From contig CANNEA010000003.1 in assembly GCA_947503525.1 (NCBI GenBank), positions 186,001-250,000 of the forward strand: a DNA stretch of 64,000 bases, read 5' to 3'. The position numbers and the translations under genes were made by a program. The notes under the pieces were generated by a model that saw only the letters and a program-made list of their open reading frames with translations, did no database searches and was not told the origin of the DNA. Of this stretch, positions 20,831 through 31,146 are shown in pieces. Position 1 is the stretch's first letter, and each line of letters starts with the position of its first letter. Source of the DNA: an uncultured Carboxylicivirga sp. (GTDB lineage Bacteria > Bacteroidota > Bacteroidia > Bacteroidales > Marinilabiliaceae).

Positions 20831-20862
20831 AAGGCGGTTTCGGTAACGAAATCGCCTTTTTA
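20831..20862 (+). terminator. Terminator after the S46 peptidase
   Basis: AAGGCGGTTTCG (20831-20842) pairs with CGAAATCGCCTT (20847-20858) with one G-T pair and a GTAA tetraloop, then a T run. It isolates the giant gene that follows as its own transcription unit. Confidence 0.88.
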
Positions 20863-21009
20863 GTTATTTGTGTTGTGTTTTTATCGTCTTGAAAATGATG
20901 AGATTATAAGTTATTTTGGTATATTGGGTTGAGTTCGTTGTTAATTCGCAGGAATCTTCACGAATTCGTTATTCAAAATCGGCTGTATTCAATAACCAAA
21001 TCCAATATC

Positions 21010-24000
21010 ATGCAATTAGAAAGTGCCCCCAGAACTGTTCTAAGGAAAGAAGCTCGAGAATTTATCGATTTGTACGCCTCCCTTGGAGAAAGAGCGGAAG
21101 TTTTGTTACCGGGTTTTATTTTCGATAACCTTAAAACCTTCGTTAAATTATGTCTTGAAGAGCCCAATGATCCCGCTCGACAGCAGGCTGAGATTCAAAA
21201 GTATCTTTTAAAGTTTCGTGAAGAAATTCCAGGATATGTTGATGTATCCTTAATGCTATTTCCTCATGAGGATTCCAAGGCGTTTATATATAATTCGCTA
21301 AAACGAAAGTTTAATGAGAAGGCAGCGGCTTATATTAACACTGAAATGGTGAATGAACAGGAAAAGAGCGAACTGAGTAATATTCTTAATACGCATGACT
21401 TTTCGGTTGGCACGCCTCCGGTAACTGATAAAACAATTAGTTTTTTGTCGAAGATAGTGGTTGGAGACTTACTGCAGGATCTTCGCCGATTCAGAGATGT
21501 GATTGGGGTAATTGGAGATATAGATGAGGCCCATTGGAACTATTTAATGGATACTTTGGAGCAGCTGATAAACCAAAGTACCCATTATACAACTAAAGCT
21601 GAAAAGGATAATTTTTTACACCGTACCGAATGGGCGGTTAATTTTAAAGGACTAAACGGACTGATACGCACGGTAGTGTCTGGTAATTCAGATATAGCCG
21701 TTGACCTATTAAAAGGAGATGTGTTTGGAGCGGATTGTGTTAAGGTAGTTGAAGGAATCAGCGGAGATGATTTGTTTTTACAGATGCAGAAGGACACCTC
21801 AAGTGTATTTGCTGTTAAGGTAAAACATATGCGTAAGAACATTTTTGCTGGTAGCAGGTGGTTTGCGATGCTTTCGCGATTGGTTATTATTGATAATTCT
21901 CCGGAATCGATGGCTTCAAATACATCATTGGTGTTTAGCTTTCATAATGGCATAATAAATACCCTTAATAAAGTACATACTAAAAAGCTGGGGGCGCCTG
22001 CAAATACTCAGTTGAATCTTCGATTGATTCTGGAAAATGTTAATGCAAAGTATTTGCTTGAGTTTAAAAATTTATTGGAAAACAAAATAAGTGAATACAA
22101 CGATGAACTCAAAGAACTAAAAACAGAACAATTAGGGGAGGTAGATGATGTAGTTAAAAATACCAATCTATTTAAGTTCGATGGATTTACGCGTCAGATA
22201 CTGAAAGATCGTTATTCCTTGCAGATGCTTCGTGATTTCATAGTTTTTATTCAAAACACATGCGACGAGAAACTGAGAAAGGAACAGAATAAACTATTGA
22301 TTGACCAATTTGAACATCTGGTTTCTAAGTACTTTTATTCGTCTAACACAAATTTGAAAATTGCCACAGTTTTAGAAGGAGGGGGGCGGAATCAGATAAA
22401 AACTTATGGTGAATTTCTACAAACCCGTCAGATAAAACCTCTCAAGCCTGAAATAAGGAAGAGGTGTAAAACCATTATTGATTTCATACCTGATAATTAT
22501 AAACGAACATTACATAATCATTTTCATAAAAATTTTGGGGTGAATCTATTTCTGGAGAAATATCAGAAATACATCACTAAGGTAGATAACGAATCAGATA
22601 ATAAGGGGCGATTTCGAAACGTATTAATAGATCTTGGGGTATTTAAGGATTTCCAGAAAAGAGAAACTGACGAACAAGAAATTATTAAAGGTTTTATAAG
22701 TGATTTGGGCAATCTGGATAAGACTTCGATTGCTGATGACGTTCAAATGATTATTCGTGACTTGTTGTTTTTTAAGGATAAAAGCCCCAAGCCATATATT
22801 ATTTACAATAAGGTTTTATCATGGGAATACACCGACCTTTTTGCTGATGATAAATTTGATATTAATCCTTTTGATATTGAGATTGAAAACCTGGATGATC
22901 AACGAATCGATTATGAGCGCATTCACAAAAAGTTGTCTCGTATAAAAAACACCCTTCAATTATTTGATGCAACCGGTAATTTATGGGATCGGTTTTGTGA
23001 AAATACCAGCATCATCGTAAATGATCCATCTAACCCAACGGGTTATTCTGATTTTAATGATGAGCATTTAATCAGTTTCTTAAAGTTCATCAATAATAGT
23101 AAAATCACCTTGCTGTTAGATGAAGCCTATACCGATAGTGTAAAAATAGCTTCGGATGAATTACCAAAGTGGCGAAGTATCTCACGCTATGTTCTTAATA
23201 ACGAAAATGTATATTCCAAGATCAGGGTGGTTTCATCATTGTCTACCACCAAAAACCTGTCGGGTGCAGGTGATCGTTTAGGAGCTTTAGTGGCGACGCC
23301 GGAAATGAAAGCGGTAACAGATTTTGCCAAAAAACGCAATTCAGCAAATAAAGGAAACAGCTGTTCTTTGTATTTCTTAAATAGAATTCTTCAAGTAGGT
23401 ATAGAGGCCAAAAAACTTAAGGATTCCATGGAATCGGAATTGCCTAAAAATGCCTCAAGGAGCAAGATTAATAAATTAGTTGAAGGTTTTATTGTCGCAC
23501 AGGTTGCTGAAAAACCCAAAACGAGCCGTAGCCTTTTAAAACCACTTAGTGAGTTTGAAGGAAGTCCATTACATTTATATTTATTAGATGAATTAGTATC
23601 CTTATCAAAACTTGATATATTGGGATTACCTGATGATTTTAAATATAAAGATGTCCCCTTCTTTATTTACTATCACAAGGAACTGGTTAAGGGATTAAAC
23701 CAATTTAGAGTTAATAAGAATTTTCGAAAGGAATCAAATAAAAGATTAAGACTTGCTAAAAAACTTGCGACACAAGTAATTGATGAAATGGGAATGGATG
23801 ACGTTTCGGTTCTTGAATCGGATGGAAGTTATCTTTTTAATCTTTATTTCACCGATTTCGGAACGTATAACGATTTGGAAGAATTCTCAAAGGTAATAGC
23901 CGCAGAAAGAGGTATTTCTGTTTTGCCATATAGGACTGGCGTGGTGCGCTTTTCTTTGGGCGGTTTTATTGATGGTTCCAAAATGAGTTATGAAATATTT

Positions 24001-27000
24001 GAAAAAGAAATTGTAACAGCATTAAAAATTTATCTTAGCTACTGGAGGGTGTTTCGCGCCTTGCGCATAAAAACAGACAAGTATGTTGAAACATCCATGG
24101 TGCTGCAGCAAATGTTTGAGGTGAAATCAGATCGGGATTTCCTTAATATCTTATTGATTGATTATCAACTAATACTTGGTGTCAAGAAATCGATTAATTC
24201 CTCATTGAAAATTAATGAAAATCGCTCGCTTTATCATACTTCGCCTCAAATAAGTGGTGTTACAATTACATCTATTGGAGATTCAAAAAATTCAGTAATT
24301 GAATTTTCAGGCGATGTGGGGGATTGCAGAAACGTTGAGGAATTTATTCAAAGTTCGGCTTTTACTAAAATTTACGAGAATCTTTTACCACAGATCTATA
24401 AGAAGATTCCACAGATTAAATATTTAAATTTTAATACTGTCGCTTCGCGTTATAGCAAAGCCACAATTTTAAAATACATCCATAACAAAAAAACCTTTCA
24501 TCCCAATCATTTTGTATTAGATGATCCTGAAGAGAAAAATACGATGCGGGAAATTCTAATAGAAATCGAACGCCTTTTGTTTTCGGATGAAAAAATGAAG
24601 ATCCTGACTTTGAAAGCCAGTGGTGATTATAATATGGATGTGGCCCGTTTAGAAGGGGTTAATATGGTATTGAAAAAGCATATACAAGAAATACTTCTTC
24701 ATTTCAATTTGCCATTTGAACAAGCCAGTATTGAACCAAGTCGTAAGGAAATAGTTAAGACGGCCTGTGAAATGTTTAATGAAGTTACGGGTATAAAAGA
24801 TTCTGAATTAAACCTTGAAAAATATTTAAGTCAATTTTTTGAATCATTGAGTGAAGATCCTCGTTTTGTTCAGGTGCCAATGTCAATGCGTTGTCTTGGT
24901 ATCATCATCGACTCAGTTAAAAAACGCATCTTCTCTGATGAATTAAGTGTATATGAAAAAGTACTTTATGTATATCTTCTTCAGCATGAAAATTCATTTT
25001 ACAGACATTCATTAAATAAATTAGAATATCTACAGAAAAAAATAGATGCGGTTTCAGACAGTGAACTTAAAGTTTACACTGAGAATATAATTAGCGAAAT
25101 ATTACCTCAGGAGATGAATGATATTATGCGCTACATTATTCGTAAGAAGGATATTAAAATTCCGCAGGATAAGCTTTATGAGGTTACACAGAAAGTAGTC
25201 AATTTTATTATTGAGGTTCAGAATTTAACCAAAGGCACTTCTTATTATCAACGCTATGCACATACCTTAATTAAGGTAGTGGAAGTGCATTTTAGTCGTC
25301 AGAATTCGAGTGTGAACCAATTGATTCAACATGGAGTTTCGCTCTATCGTCATTTTGAGATGGAAGATAAAACCTTGGAGAATTACGAGAATGGTTCTTT
25401 GAATTGGATCAATGAATTAATGACAAAATGTGGAGTTGTATCAGTTGAACAACCTATTCAAAGGCATACAAGAATAGTAACAGACGCAAAGAAACGTGAA
25501 TATCCATTCCATAAAATCGATCGATCAGAGGAAGTGTCGGATTATTTAATTGGTATGAATGAGGGATCGTCAAAACATAATTACTTAAAATCTATTGCAA
25601 CAAAACCAAGCTCTAAATTTTTCGAGCGTCGTTTGGCAAGTTTTGTTGCCAATATGGATCCGGATGATTATCGTTGTAAAATAATGCAGCATGGTGTTGT
25701 TAAGGAAATGATGGTCTTTCAAAAAGGATATATCAAGTACATGACGGATAATTTCCGCTTAATGCAATATAAAGATGTGTCGCTTAAAGATGCCATCAAT
25801 TTTAATCCCGATGTATTGCTATTCTTTGGAGCTCCTGAAAAAGTAATTTCGTTCCCTCAAGTTGGCTATTTTGATATAAAGGGACCCAATGGAAATATTA
25901 AAACAATAGTTACCCCACTTAAGAAAGAAGCGGATTATTTCGGTGATGTTAAGAAACCGCGTTTAAGCATGCTTAACGAAAAGGTTAAGGAATTGGGTGG
26001 AGTGCCAAAGCATGGCTCTTTGTTTGCCGTTGAGTTGGAAGATGGAAGCATATTTGTCATTGAAATTGACGGAGATAGTGGTGTAGGTAAGTCTGAAATG
26101 ATTGCGGCCCTGGTTTTGAAATGGATTAAACAAAACTTATCAGGTGTACGGTCCATTAAAATGATCGCCGGCGATATGTTTCATGTATTCAGAGATAAAC
26201 AAGGTAATATTTATGGTTTTGGAACTGAAGAAGGCGATTTCTCCAGAGTTACCGATTTTGATCCTGACTTTATTAAATACTATAAGTATTTGTTCGAAAG
26301 CAGCGCAGATAGTAATGTGACAGATTTAAACTCACGAAGCACGGTAAGCGGCTTGTGTGAGATTCAAATGCCATATAAAATCGATATTATCTTAACTGCT
26401 CATAACTACAGTAAAGAAGAAGCCGGAATTACGCGTGTGGATAATCCTGAAAATTTCATGATGTATATTGATTCGCATGGTGAGCGAAAAGAAAAGGCGA
26501 CGAGTCAGGATGGGCCTAATTTTCAAAGAACATTACATCGCTATACAGCTGATAAAAATATTGTTGAAGTTTTGGCTCAGCATGGCAATTACCTGGATGA
26601 TGTATTGGATTGGGAATTTGTTTCAAGTGAAAAGAAATATTATTTGGCCTCGTCATATAAAATGATGGATAAAATTGATATTGAGCAGGTGGTGAACAAA
26701 ATATTTGTGGGTAAGTCATTTAAATATCAGGATGAACTTGTATTGATTAGAAAGGTCAACTTTGATATTATTAAAAATCGCTTTGTTGCCAATGTGGTGT
26801 CTGCAAATGATCAGGTTCAGAATCTGGTTGTTATCTGTAGAAATATATTTAGTCAGATGTTTGACGCCTTGGCGAGTACCCCTGGTGGCCAGCCTTTTAT
26901 TGCGCAGGAAGGACAGGTAGAATCACGCTACTATTTAACTGACGTTTTAAGTGGTGGTAAAGATCGGAAAGGTGAGGGACGAAATGTTCAGTGCGGCATT

Positions 27001-27672
27001 GTTTCAACCGAAATAGGTAAAAAGGGAAAAGAGATTACCGGACCACAGAAAGCAGCCGAGGCTTTAACTAAACTAATTCAGGATCTTCGTGCGGGTAGTG
27101 CTGTGATAAATGAAAGGAAGAATATAGTTCGTCAATTGGTTCGCGAAAAATATGCCCATGTTTTTACAAATGGAGGTGGTAGTAATGAAATTTGGCGTTA
27201 TAATTTCTACCTATATCAACTTGATAAAATGATGAAAGCTGAGTTTGTAAGAATGGATGATCCTTCGGTGGTGGTTGATTTATCAGGCGTAAATAAATAT
27301 GAACCTAAAGATAAAAAGGAAGCATTTAGTCCACTGTTGGTCACTCCAAATTTAAATATAGAGTTGAGTAGTTTTGGGGAAACCAGTAATGAGTTAATGA
27401 GTTTGCCGAATTACCCTGAGTTTGCGGAGGAATTTATGGATGGAGCTGATGTGCTTTACGAGGCAAAAGGCTACTCAAATGAAACCATTGTTAATAATAT
27501 GATTACGCAGTTATTATTAATTGGTGAGTACATTGAATTTGATGATTTGTTAAAAGGTCGTATAACTGAGAAAGTTAATCGTGAGACAATTGCCGCTGCA
27601 AAATATGCGGTGATTCAGGAATTGACCAGGAGATCATCAAAAGAAACTAAAACTAAGGATAACAAATCTTAA
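21010..27672 (+). CDS. Giant aminotransferase-fold / P-loop kinase fusion protein
   Basis: 2220 residues from the ATG at 21010 (MQLESAPRTVLRKEAREF); a non-ATG frame 81 bases longer exists but is less likely. Residues 1-570 are mostly helical and unrecognised. Residues about 580-1025 form a class I/II aminotransferase fold: NPTG (675-678), DEAY (704-707), the Schiff-base Lys748 in STTKNLSGAGDRLG with Arg756 at the expected 8-residue offset, and a C-terminal VLPYRTGVVRFSLGG. Residues 1030-1650 are unrecognised. Residues about 1680-2000 hold a Walker A GDSGVGKSE (1688-1696) inside VIEIDGDSGVGKSEMIAA, closest to HPr kinase or ATP-type PEP carboxykinase, then RSTVSGLCEI and TEIGKKGKEITGPQKAAEAL. 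No signal peptide or membrane helix. It has terminator-bounded, single-gene context. Function unknown; it may couple a PLP reaction to phosphorylation. Confidence 0.85.
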   Translation: MQLESAPRTVLRKEAREFIDLYASLGERAEVLLPGFIFDNLKTFVKLCLEEPNDPARQQAEIQKYLLKFREEIPGYVDVSLMLFPHEDSKAFIYNSLKRKFNEKAAAYINTEMVNEQEKSELSNILNTHDFSVGTPPVTDKTISFLSKIVVGDLLQDLRRFRDVIGVIGDIDEAHWNYLMDTLEQLINQSTHYTTKAEKDNFLHRTEWAVNFKGLNGLIRTVVSGNSDIAVDLLKGDVFGADCVKVVEGISGDDLFLQMQKDTSSVFAVKVKHMRKNIFAGSRWFAMLSRLVIIDNSPESMASNTSLVFSFHNGIINTLNKVHTKKLGAPANTQLNLRLILENVNAKYLLEFKNLLENKISEYNDELKELKTEQLGEVDDVVKNTNLFKFDGFTRQILKDRYSLQMLRDFIVFIQNTCDEKLRKEQNKLLIDQFEHLVSKYFYSSNTNLKIATVLEGGGRNQIKTYGEFLQTRQIKPLKPEIRKRCKTIIDFIPDNYKRTLHNHFHKNFGVNLFLEKYQKYITKVDNESDNKGRFRNVLIDLGVFKDFQKRETDEQEIIKGFISDLGNLDKTSIADDVQMIIRDLLFFKDKSPKPYIIYNKVLSWEYTDLFADDKFDINPFDIEIENLDDQRIDYERIHKKLSRIKNTLQLFDATGNLWDRFCENTSIIVNDPSNPTGYSDFNDEHLISFLKFINNSKITLLLDEAYTDSVKIASDELPKWRSISRYVLNNENVYSKIRVVSSLSTTKNLSGAGDRLGALVATPEMKAVTDFAKKRNSANKGNSCSLYFLNRILQVGIEAKKLKDSMESELPKNASRSKINKLVEGFIVAQVAEKPKTSRSLLKPLSEFEGSPLHLYLLDELVSLSKLDILGLPDDFKYKDVPFFIYYHKELVKGLNQFRVNKNFRKESNKRLRLAKKLATQVIDEMGMDDVSVLESDGSYLFNLYFTDFGTYNDLEEFSKVIAAERGISVLPYRTGVVRFSLGGFIDGSKMSYEIFEKEIVTALKIYLSYWRVFRALRIKTDKYVETSMVLQQMFEVKSDRDFLNILLIDYQLILGVKKSINSSLKINENRSLYHTSPQISGVTITSIGDSKNSVIEFSGDVGDCRNVEEFIQSSAFTKIYENLLPQIYKKIPQIKYLNFNTVASRYSKATILKYIHNKKTFHPNHFVLDDPEEKNTMREILIEIERLLFSDEKMKILTLKASGDYNMDVARLEGVNMVLKKHIQEILLHFNLPFEQASIEPSRKEIVKTACEMFNEVTGIKDSELNLEKYLSQFFESLSEDPRFVQVPMSMRCLGIIIDSVKKRIFSDELSVYEKVLYVYLLQHENSFYRHSLNKLEYLQKKIDAVSDSELKVYTENIISEILPQEMNDIMRYIIRKKDIKIPQDKLYEVTQKVVNFIIEVQNLTKGTSYYQRYAHTLIKVVEVHFSRQNSSVNQLIQHGVSLYRHFEMEDKTLENYENGSLNWINELMTKCGVVSVEQPIQRHTRIVTDAKKREYPFHKIDRSEEVSDYLIGMNEGSSKHNYLKSIATKPSSKFFERRLASFVANMDPDDYRCKIMQHGVVKEMMVFQKGYIKYMTDNFRLMQYKDVSLKDAINFNPDVLLFFGAPEKVISFPQVGYFDIKGPNGNIKTIVTPLKKEADYFGDVKKPRLSMLNEKVKELGGVPKHGSLFAVELEDGSIFVIEIDGDSGVGKSEMIAALVLKWIKQNLSGVRSIKMIAGDMFHVFRDKQGNIYGFGTEEGDFSRVTDFDPDFIKYYKYLFESSADSNVTDLNSRSTVSGLCEIQMPYKIDIILTAHNYSKEEAGITRVDNPENFMMYIDSHGERKEKATSQDGPNFQRTLHRYTADKNIVEVLAQHGNYLDDVLDWEFVSSEKKYYLASSYKMMDKIDIEQVVNKIFVGKSFKYQDELVLIRKVNFDIIKNRFVANVVSANDQVQNLVVICRNIFSQMFDALASTPGGQPFIAQEGQVESRYYLTDVLSGGKDRKGEGRNVQCGIVSTEIGKKGKEITGPQKAAEALTKLIQDLRAGSAVINERKNIVRQLVREKYAHVFTNGGGSNEIWRYNFYLYQLDKMMKAEFVRMDDPSVVVDLSGVNKYEPKDKKEAFSPLLVTPNLNIELSSFGETSNELMSLPNYPEFAEEFMDGADVLYEAKGYSNETIVNNMITQLLLIGEYIEFDDLLKGRITEKVNRETIAAAKYAVIQELTRRSSKETKTKDNKS

Positions 27673-27754: not shown

Positions 27755-28114
27755 TTAATCCTCCTTCCAATGAATTAAAAGATAAAGATCTTCAGCAAGG
27801 GCGAGGTAACCCTGATCGTAACATAAGTGGTAAATGCTGCCTTTTTGGGTAGTGTATATTCCTGTGCAATGGTTAAAGTCAAACCCTTCTTGTAATAATT
27901 TGCTTCGTTTTACTTTAGTTTTACCTGTTGTATTGATCTGCCTTAAAATACTGTAATTCTTCTTGAGTTGTCGATTGATCTTTTGTACAAGTATGTTGTC
28001 AGAACTGTAACGTTGGTTATTGAAACTATTACGACATTGATCTGAGCAAAATCTTTTATCCACGCGACCAACAATTGGATCTTTACATACGGGGCATATT
28101 CGTTTTTCTTCCAT
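27755..28114 (-). CDS. Small zinc-ribbon protein
   Basis: 119 residues. The first 30 hold two CxxC-type pairs, CPVCKDPI and FCSDQCRNSFNNQR, a zinc ribbon of the kind seen in DUF2116-like proteins. The rest (about 35-119) is a basic helix (NRQLKKNYSILRQIN) followed by GFDFNHCTGIYTTQKGSIYH and an aromatic C-terminus. I recognise it only as a Bacteroidota hypothetical family. It is divergent from ssb across 170 bases. A nucleic-acid-binding role is plausible from the zinc ribbon and basic character but not shown. Confidence 0.75.
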   Translation of the reverse strand: MEEKRICPVCKDPIVGRVDKRFCSDQCRNSFNNQRYSSDNILVQKINRQLKKNYSILRQINTTGKTKVKRSKLLQEGFDFNHCTGIYTTQKGSIYHLCYDQGYLALAEDLYLLIHWKED

Positions 28115-30504: not shown

Positions 30505-31146
30505 TTAATGATGATGCTCCATTTGATTTAAGATTGTAACAGGACTCATATACACTTCGGCTTTAAAAGCCTTATACTCTTCGCAAGCGTCAGAGTCATG
30601 TAATACATATGAAGCCCAATGGTATAACTGTTGACCAAAACCGGCGGCAATAGTCAGGCTGTCGGTATGTTGCTCTACCTTAATTTTACCTTGTTTTGAA
30701 AGGTATTGATAACCACGTTCCATAATCCCGGAAAGGCGACGACTTTCATAATCTCTTATGTGCATTAGTTCATGAGCAAATAAACCAATTCTTGCTTTAT
30801 TAGGAACATCATTGAGGTGCACGCCTTCAAAGTTCTTGTCATTATTCACCACAATTACGTATCTGCGGTTCTTTTTGCCCAATAGAACAGAAAAGAAATT
30901 GGGCCTTGCGGCCATGGTGGTTTTAAGTTTCTTGTTTTTGATTTTAATCCGACAGTTTTGTAAATCACTAAACTCGGCATAGGGTACCATAAAATCGTCC
31001 AGATAGGATTGTTTAAAAGTGGTATCCACCTTCAGTTTCCCTATTTTGTTGTATTTTTTTAGTTTTGGATTAACAATTTCCTGCGATATAGCAGAGCTGG
31101 CTGTTAATAGTCCAATCAGTAATAGTAATAAATCTCTCAACACCAT
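30505..31146 (-). CDS. Exported putative zinc metalloprotein (HExxH)
   Basis: 213 residues with a Sec signal (LRDLLLLLIGLLTASSAISQ). The motif HELMH (His125, Glu126, His129) in GLFAHELMHIRDYESR is a classic HExxH zinc site, and about 29 residues later EQHTDSLTIAAGFG supplies an ExxxD-like third-ligand motif (Glu158, Asp162), as in gluzincin peptidases. The predicted protein is small for a peptidase family; I cannot name one with certainty, and an M48-like minimal peptidase is the nearest description. It faces SulP across a shared terminator and has no operon partner. Activity is inferred from motif only. Confidence 0.7.
   Translation of the reverse strand: MVLRDLLLLLIGLLTASSAISQEIVNPKLKKYNKIGKLKVDTTFKQSYLDDFMVPYAEFSDLQNCRIKIKNKKLKTTMAARPNFFSVLLGKKNRRYVIVVNNDKNFEGVHLNDVPNKARIGLFAHELMHIRDYESRRLSGIMERGYQYLSKQGKIKVEQHTDSLTIAAGFGQQLYHWASYVLHDSDACEEYKAFKAEVYMSPVTILNQMEHHH

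Follow-up and report, generated by a model that had tools for sequence, protein, structure and literature searches.

A conserved 2220-residue protein of Bacteroidota joins a predicted pyridoxal-phosphate aminotransferase to a putative carboxykinase-type P-loop domain

Phosphoenolpyruvate (PEP) carboxykinases (PEPCK) of the ATP and GTP types (Pfam PF01293 and PF00821) and HprK, whose C-terminal domain is captured by PF07475, belong to one superfamily of P-loop proteins, and the class I/II aminotransferases (PF00155), among them 1-aminocyclopropane-1-carboxylate (ACC) synthase, GntC and aspartate 4-decarboxylase, form a second known superfamily, dependent on pyridoxal 5'-phosphate (PLP). Kinase and PLP activities are present together in MM2060 of Methanosarcina mazei, which is reported to be a threonine kinase/threonine-phosphate decarboxylase (PMC9986279). 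Here we analyze a single gene in a stretch of 64,000 nucleotides from an uncultured Carboxylicivirga sp. (positions 186001-250000 of contig 3, CANNEA010000003.1, of the 6.56-Mb assembly GCA_947503525.1; hereafter the window), the product of which carries both types of domain in one chain. A preliminary description had read this gene as a fusion of an aminotransferase fold with an HprK/PEPCK-like kinase and had called the pairing unfamiliar. Part of this judgment has to be given up, as MM2060 is a precedent in kind, combining kinase and PLP enzyme activities in one protein. Within the reach of our searches, the pairing with a PEPCK-type domain and with two blocks of no known family is undescribed: no account of such a fusion was found in the literature searched, which covered few subscription papers, and neither the architecture, the kinase branch nor the two blocks carry a name in the Pfam and NCBIfam scans reached.

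The gene is intact, as originally stated, with no internal stop over 2220 codons between a terminator-like hairpin and a convergent open reading frame (ORF; Table 1), and its product has one match in its own genome at E ≤ 0.001. Our scan of named genomes returned 56 loci, 46 of which give a straight-through protein; these, one further genome and the window's own protein make up a set of 48 sequences. Identity to the window protein is 51-82% in the 47 relatives, with few gaps and matched stretches of 2154-2228 residues, and all residues tested (14 in the aminotransferase part and 18 in the P-loop domain) are identical in 48/48. Since straight-through relatives are present in many genomes, a chance fusion is excluded. 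The proposal that the whole chain is under selection is borne out by four close pairs, in which the proportion of differing synonymous sites (pS) is saturated at 0.76-1.03 and that of non-synonymous sites (pN) stays at 0.067-0.183 in all six blocks; every block of the fusion protein is under strong purifying selection in these pairs. The four main blocks diverge in a correlated manner (r 0.86-0.95), which fits a unit that is inherited as a whole.

Ten of the 56 loci do not enter the 48-row set: the partial loci L032, L035, L042, L048, L050 and L057; L053, with a single stop four codons before the end of its match that is probably its normal stop; and three others. Two of the latter, L010 (7008-13872) and L041 (171-6819), are full of stops if their matched stretch is translated in a single frame, and L045 (591-6269) covers residues 1-2209 in too few bases; these three copies may reflect assembly error or decay. 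L029, cut short near its end, was kept in the set and omitted from the hhalign profiles.

Hosts of the fusion belong to the Marinilabiliaceae, Rikenellaceae, Marinifilaceae and many other Bacteroidota, and the named strains include Marinilabilia, Anaerophaga, Thermophagus, Geofilum and Ancylomarina. A quick tree of the relatives, rooted at the midpoint, places the window protein among the Marinilabiliaceae; the same tree nests a copy from a Chlorobiota metagenome-assembled genome, which may be a misassigned contig, within the Marinilabiliaceae, and groups a copy from a Calditrichaceae metagenome-assembled genome, on a long branch, with the Marinifilaceae. The fusion was present in 2/296 genomes of a sample of the phylum, and the fused type of kinase in 22/393 genomes of a sample of the order, the window being counted in both; 21 of these 22 kinases lie in open frames of at least 2150 amino acids and one (G622) in a frame of 1069 amino acids. 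The fusion is thus long-lived but patchy.

Judged by its sequence, the aminotransferase part is an apparently intact PLP enzyme of fold-type I. It scores 42 bits with PF00155 (Aminotran_1_2; residues 587-794), above the curated cut-off of 19.7, and a profile of the family matches the structures 1iax and 4my5, the latter in two pieces, one of which comprises residues 925-1004. The chain was modeled in two segments, as had been recommended at the outset. For the model of residues 1-1110, with a mean predicted local distance difference test score (pLDDT) of 81.7, the Foldseek matches listed are to ACC synthase and GntC, among other enzymes of fold-type I. The motifs first pointed out in this region are all invariant: Asn675 of NPTG, Asp704 and Tyr707 of DEAY, Lys748, Arg756 and Arg980 of VRFSLGG are, with Ser745 and seven more positions, identical in 48/48. 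If roles are assigned as in aspartate aminotransferase, the catalytic set of a class I/II enzyme is complete, with the Schiff-base lysine, the aspartate at the pyridine nitrogen, the asparagine of NPxG, the tyrosine, the serine and arginine for the phosphate, and a C-terminal arginine for the carboxylate. Fold and catalytic residues are those of the class I/II enzymes, from which the protein differs by its long N-terminal block and by a conserved insertion that probably spans about residues 810-900, within outer domain limits that would lie near residues 505 and 1020.

No subfamily cut-off was reached by this domain, the NCBIfam scores of which are far lower. The second-best NCBIfam match is TIGR01140, the CobD-type threonine-phosphate decarboxylase, which would fit a biosynthetic role akin to that of MM2060: the P-loop domain would phosphorylate a hydroxyl group, and the PLP domain would transaminate or decarboxylate the phospho-amino acid (or amine). 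HprK, a member of the same superfamily as our P-loop domain, phosphorylates a serine hydroxyl. MM2060 itself would be the precedent (PMC9986279), but the fusion scores only 27.1 bits with the CobD model against a cut-off of 290.55, there is no cobamide gene among the ten neighbors scanned, and the PEPCK signature described below, missing in the HprK proteins fetched, would have no obvious use in such a kinase. We consider this explanation unlikely.

The Walker A motif GDSGVGKSE, reported at the outset to lie far downstream, occupies residues 1688-1696, about 940 residues after Lys748. Ahead of it stands the pattern Y-x-G-x2-K-K-x6-N-x11-H, for which we scanned 2494 frames of at least 100 amino acids (739,838 residues) from the window and 150 loci; overlapping loci were included, so that the counts are not independent. 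It occurs 132 times, in 94 fused, 24 stand-alone and 14 ATP-PEPCK frames and in no other kind, with identical ungapped spacing in all 14 ATP-PEPCK frames fetched, and it is missing from 8/8 HprK loci fetched. Four HprK sequences printed keep the HG motif and the P-loop but not the lysine pair, and HprK frames are mostly about 340-370 residues long. The lysines, the histidine and a downstream aspartate are presumably metal ligands, as in the Escherichia coli PEPCK. The predicted model of residues 1041-2220 (mean pLDDT 76.5; predicted template modeling score, pTM, 0.65) gave 322 Foldseek matches at E ≤ 10, the best 50 of which are all PEPCK (E 5.3e-6 to 3e-5, probability 1.00). A co-linear profile alignment with ATP-PEPCK, which keeps the order of signature, P-loop and N-x-R motif, extends over 268 columns (E 0.001, probability 21%). 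There are differences as well: the P-loop reads GDSGxGKSE in the fused proteins and GLSGTGKT in PEPCK, and the fused kinase sits behind about 1440 further residues. We conclude that the kinase domain represents a branch of its own in the HprK/PEPCK superfamily, with a PEPCK-type catalytic layout. The superfamily assignment of the preliminary description thereby holds, whereas a simply HprK-like kinase does not, since the K-K...N...H spacing and the best 50 Foldseek matches are those of PEPCK. For the same two reasons, carboxykinase-type chemistry on a small molecule is at least as likely as the phosphorylation of a protein, which had been suggested along with the sensing or phosphorylation of a metabolite.

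Several other P-loop families came up in these comparisons. NACHT and STAND models matched 28 and 18 of 41 members in Pfam, covering only the P-loop in the one member with coordinates; they were set aside because the surrounding signature and the fold are those of PEPCK. Two weak matches of the kinase profiles, L119 and L120, are by eye response regulators of the sigma-54 type and were taken as chance P-loop matches. Three DUF4914 (PF16260) proteins (L103 1468-3363, L104 1492-3375, L105 1498-3378) have KKG...H at PEPCK spacing together with GASGGGKSE, and DUF4914 seems to be an unrecognized member of the PEPCK superfamily. It resembles the fused kinase in this spacing and in the G-x-S-G-x-GKSE motif of the three sequences, but it stands as a protein of its own, about 630 residues long, fails to match the signature in full, and appears below the cut-off in 5/41 members (best E 0.07). 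As a further observation, PF07475 is above its cut-off in 0/24 sampled genomes of the window's class, its own included, and in 74/75 others of the phylum.

About 900 residues, in two conserved blocks, are by all sequence comparisons without any family, in line with the large unassigned blocks noted early on. Our Pfam scans of both blocks covered 33 of the 48 rows, the first member below curated cut-offs. For residues 1-445, predicted to be mostly helical with an alpha/beta part at 219-326 in the model, the best hit was an FapA fragment in 24/33 members (E 0.0019); for residues 1030-1480 it had E 0.0012, in 1/33 members. Sequence and profile searches of the PDB gave nothing at E ≤ 1 for residues 1-445 and nothing better than E 0.19 for the middle block, in which conservation is lowest at about residues 1261-1380, a stretch predicted to be helical. 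The two blocks have no mutual similarity. Neither was found outside a long fusion frame in 247 genomes, in which only the best first-look candidates were scored; the other matches there were stand-alone kinases, a frame of 105 amino acids that corresponds to residues 2128-2209, and a single hit on the aminotransferase core.

The kinase domain has a stand-alone sister. The survey of the order found matches in 32/393 genomes, 22 with the fused type, eight with a stand-alone protein and two with a weak P-loop match only. The stand-alone protein, about 577-600 residues long and without a Pfam or NCBIfam name that we could find, aligns with fused residues 1440-2026 over 433 columns at 27% identity (hhalign probability 99.9%, E 3e-33). 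In 4/8 genomes (G314, G427, G601, G665), which represent two genera of one Bacteroidota family, one copy sits just upstream of PEP carboxylase and on its strand, the matched stretches being 133-186 bases apart (the two genes occupy L096 5652-10177 in G314 and L099 3541-8028 in G427); no ATP-type PEPCK was found in these four, and no PEP carboxylase match in the other four. ATP-PEPCK is absent in 6/8 stand-alone genomes vs 9/58 others of the order sample, the 58 being an earlier sample of 60 minus two that belong to the eight; GTP-type PEPCK was not searched. The Fisher p of 0.001 ignores kinship, as the eight genomes represent four families, of which one has ATP-PEPCK and three lack it. A homologue on the Limosilactobacillus fermentum plasmid CP033373.1 (L121 6794-8503; 37% identity over 88% of the stand-alone query) is annotated, by annotation only, as phosphoenolpyruvate carboxykinase. 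Because of the PEP carboxylase neighbor, the missing ATP-PEPCK and the plasmid annotation, the stand-alone kinase points to the PEP/oxaloacetate node. Fused and stand-alone forms occur together in 0/30 genomes, which is uninformative with about 0.45 expected.

Transamination of aspartate gives oxaloacetate, the substrate of PEPCK. Our best explanation, which we put forward tentatively, is that the fusion is a bifunctional enzyme linking an amino acid, its oxo acid and an enol phosphate, most simply aspartate, oxaloacetate and PEP. The aminotransferase center, with PLP on Lys748, would interconvert the amino acid and the 2-oxo acid; the PEPCK-type center would phosphorylate this oxo acid in its enol form, probably together with (de)carboxylation, or would run in reverse, with a metal held by Lys1648/Lys1649, His1668 and Asp1722 and the phosphoryl donor in the P-loop. 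With the simplest pair, the chain could work in either direction, from aspartate to PEP in gluconeogenesis or from PEP and CO2 to aspartate, and the two novel blocks would tie the centers to each other and may provide channeling of the unstable oxo acid. The sequences show the fusion, its conservation, the two superfamilies and the complete sets of conserved residues; we infer that both centers are active and work in sequence, and substrates, donor and channeling are to be read in the same conditional sense.

A number of observations weigh against this explanation, and we set them out together with the alternatives to which they lend support. At the level of the kinase domain, the superposition on PEPCK is poor (template modeling score 0.32 on the target, root-mean-square deviation about 12, range 10-15) and holds at the level of the fold only, and the model is weak (pLDDT < 50) at P-loop residues 1690-1693 and at 1744-1781. 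PF01293 (PEPCK_ATP) and PF00821 (PEPCK_GTP) do not match the window protein up to E 10, and they appear weakly in 12/41 (best E 0.0042) and 4/41 (best E 0.0036) members, far from family level. A local profile comparison, confined to the core and made without realignment, favors HprK, with 88% for the fused proteins alone and 94% for the stand-alone family over 60 columns, over PEPCK with 56-71% (56% fused alone, 61% stand-alone) and DUF4914 with 58-82%; the HprK profile was built from four of the eight fetched loci, those fitting the P-loop pattern, and the DUF4914 profile from three sequences. The profile check called for at the outset is in keeping with the HprK/PEPCK superfamily, with HprK locally ahead of PEPCK. 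Hpr_kinase_C (PF07475) remains below its cut-off (13.7 vs 33.3 bits for the window segment) and is weakly present in 16/41 members (best E 0.0012). Whole-domain hhalign at default settings matched the fused kinase to none of PEPCK, HprK and DUF4914, probably due to shallow alignments (template effective sequence number about 2.2-2.4), and searches of PDB sequences with the kinase profiles gave nothing significant, HprK (E 0.09) and an ATP-PEPCK (E 0.29) standing among chance Rab matches.

These scores, together with the HprK-type Walker A and HG motifs, lend themselves to a regulatory model in which the fusion would be a protein kinase/phosphatase of the HprK type and its aminotransferase part would sense an amino acid or the state of PLP, much as the aminotransferase domain of MocR regulators serves in sensing; the PEP carboxylase beside the stand-alone form could then be a target of the kinase. 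We hold this to be quite improbable: the K-K/N/H signature, invariant here, belongs to PEPCK and is missing in the eight HprK loci, no HprK is among the best 50 of the 322 Foldseek matches, the fusion has no target gene linked to it, and every catalytic residue of the aminotransferase that we tested is kept.

A further departure from PEPCK concerns the aspartates after the P-loop. They read Gly1721-Asp1722 in 48/48 fused proteins and Asp-Asp in 8/8 stand-alone proteins and in the 8/8 ATP-PEPCKs aligned, so that the stand-alone protein differs from the fused one both in being a single domain and in keeping the pair. The pyrophosphate (PPi)-type PEPCK of Entamoeba and Propionibacterium has about 1130 residues. 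With the loss of one aspartate and a similar size of 1180 residues, the C-terminal half of the fusion might be related to this enzyme and use PPi as its phosphoryl donor, an argument from size and function only. It is in all likelihood wrong, as the PPi enzymes are, according to a review, unrelated to ATP/GTP PEPCK (PMC8100219), whereas the fused kinase appears to be related to them.

The remaining objections to an aspartate-oxaloacetate-PEP enzyme concern substrates and genomic context. Among the ten NCBIfam matches up to E 10 there is no aspartate aminotransferase or aspartate 4-decarboxylase model, and structures of these enzymes stand only lower down among the 50 Foldseek matches listed. 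The link to PEP carboxylase is seen for the stand-alone form only, and in one family. ATP-PEPCK is present in 18/23 fusion genomes, no different from the rest; because most fusion genomes have both, the fusion does not replace ATP-PEPCK. The fusion is absent from all five further genomes sampled in the window's own family, and no neighbor of the fused gene is conserved family-wide, the commonest neighbor clusters being found in 8/48 loci, many of which are short contigs. Both domains might therefore be active on an uncharacterized pair of substrates unrelated to oxaloacetate, for instance in a specialized amino acid or cofactor pathway; the lack of a family-level kinase match and of an aminotransferase subfamily, the two novel blocks, the patchy distribution and the usual presence of ATP-PEPCK would all fit. 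No pathway cluster was seen in the window or across the relatives, and the evidence on the stand-alone form points toward the PEP node, which makes this reading, too, rather unlikely. The aspartate-oxaloacetate-PEP enzyme remains our best explanation.

The features of the gene are collected in Table 1. The alternative start TTG at 20929 (frame 20929-27672) would add 27 residues to the protein read from ATG 21010; the ATG is backed by the relatives, in which Met1 is nearly invariant and the start follows the consensus MxxxGxPKAxL. The ten neighbors scanned are mostly housekeeping genes, with a KdsC-like phosphatase, a UbiA-type prenyltransferase, Maf and a Dpp7-type peptidase upstream, and SSB, a SulP transporter, an MsbA-like exporter, adenylosuccinate lyase and two ORFs without a family downstream; among them the fusion gene is not part of a pathway cluster. 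Like the convergent ORF, a 213-amino-acid ORF at 30505-31146 on the reverse strand has no Pfam or NCBIfam family at E ≤ 1e-5. Marinilabilia-like genomes share an upstream block of SPFH proteins, trehalose synthesis and a GH15 protein (annotated in one genome, L008), which we took as plain synteny. The GC content (0.355 for the gene vs 0.357 for the window) gives no sign of recent transfer, a weak test.

Table 1. Position of the fusion gene, its parts and its flanking elements in the window
Feature	Position	Strand	Basis
Whole gene, 2220-amino-acid fusion protein	21010..27672	+	ORF; sole genome match; 47 relatives
N-terminal block, residues 1-445	21010..22344	+	No known family
Fold-type I PLP aminotransferase domain, about residues 505-1020 (predicted)	22522..24069	+	Pfam, profile and Foldseek matches
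Lys748, putative PLP Schiff-base lysine by motif S-T-T-K-N-L..G-x-R-L-G	23251..23253	+	Identical in 48/48
Middle block, residues 1031-1440	24100..25329	+	No known family
PEPCK-type P-loop kinase domain, about residues 1441-2060 (predicted)	25330..27189	+	hhalign to stand-alone family, Foldseek, profile alignment
PEPCK signature Y1643-x-G1645-x2-K1648-K1649-x6-N1656-x11-H1668	25936..26013	+	Identical in 48/48
Walker A GDSGVGKSE, residues 1688-1696	26071..26097	+	G1688, G1691, G1693, K1694, S1695 identical in 48/48
Asp1722, presumed metal-binding	26173..26175	+	Identical in 48/48; invariant pairs in stand-alone family and PEPCK
N1774-x-R1776, counterpart of N-T-R in ATP-PEPCK	26329..26337	+	Conservation and profile alignment
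C-terminal extension, residues 2061-2220, variable tail at end	27190..27669	+	Alignment of relatives
Terminator-like hairpin, 12 pairs, between upstream Dpp7-like peptidase gene and fusion gene	20831..20858	+	Consensus match only
Convergent 119-amino-acid ORF	27755-28114	-	No Pfam/NCBIfam family at E ≤ 1e-5

In its most far-reaching form, the explanation we favor would posit a hitherto unrecognized bacterial lineage of the PEP carboxykinase type with stand-alone and fused members, in which the fused chain would run aspartate-oxaloacetate-PEP and its two new domains would channel the intermediate; taken as a whole, this proposal is doubtful. The kinase domain appears to bridge HprK, by its P-loop, and PEPCK, by its metal-site signature, and bears on how metabolite kinases and protein kinases diverged. 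The stand-alone family may explain how PEP is formed from oxaloacetate in the 6/8 genomes in which no ATP-type PEPCK was found. If our explanation is true, an unannotated enzyme would be added to the PEP-pyruvate-oxaloacetate node of many Bacteroidota, and the fusion would naturally connect nitrogen metabolism with gluconeogenesis in a single chain.

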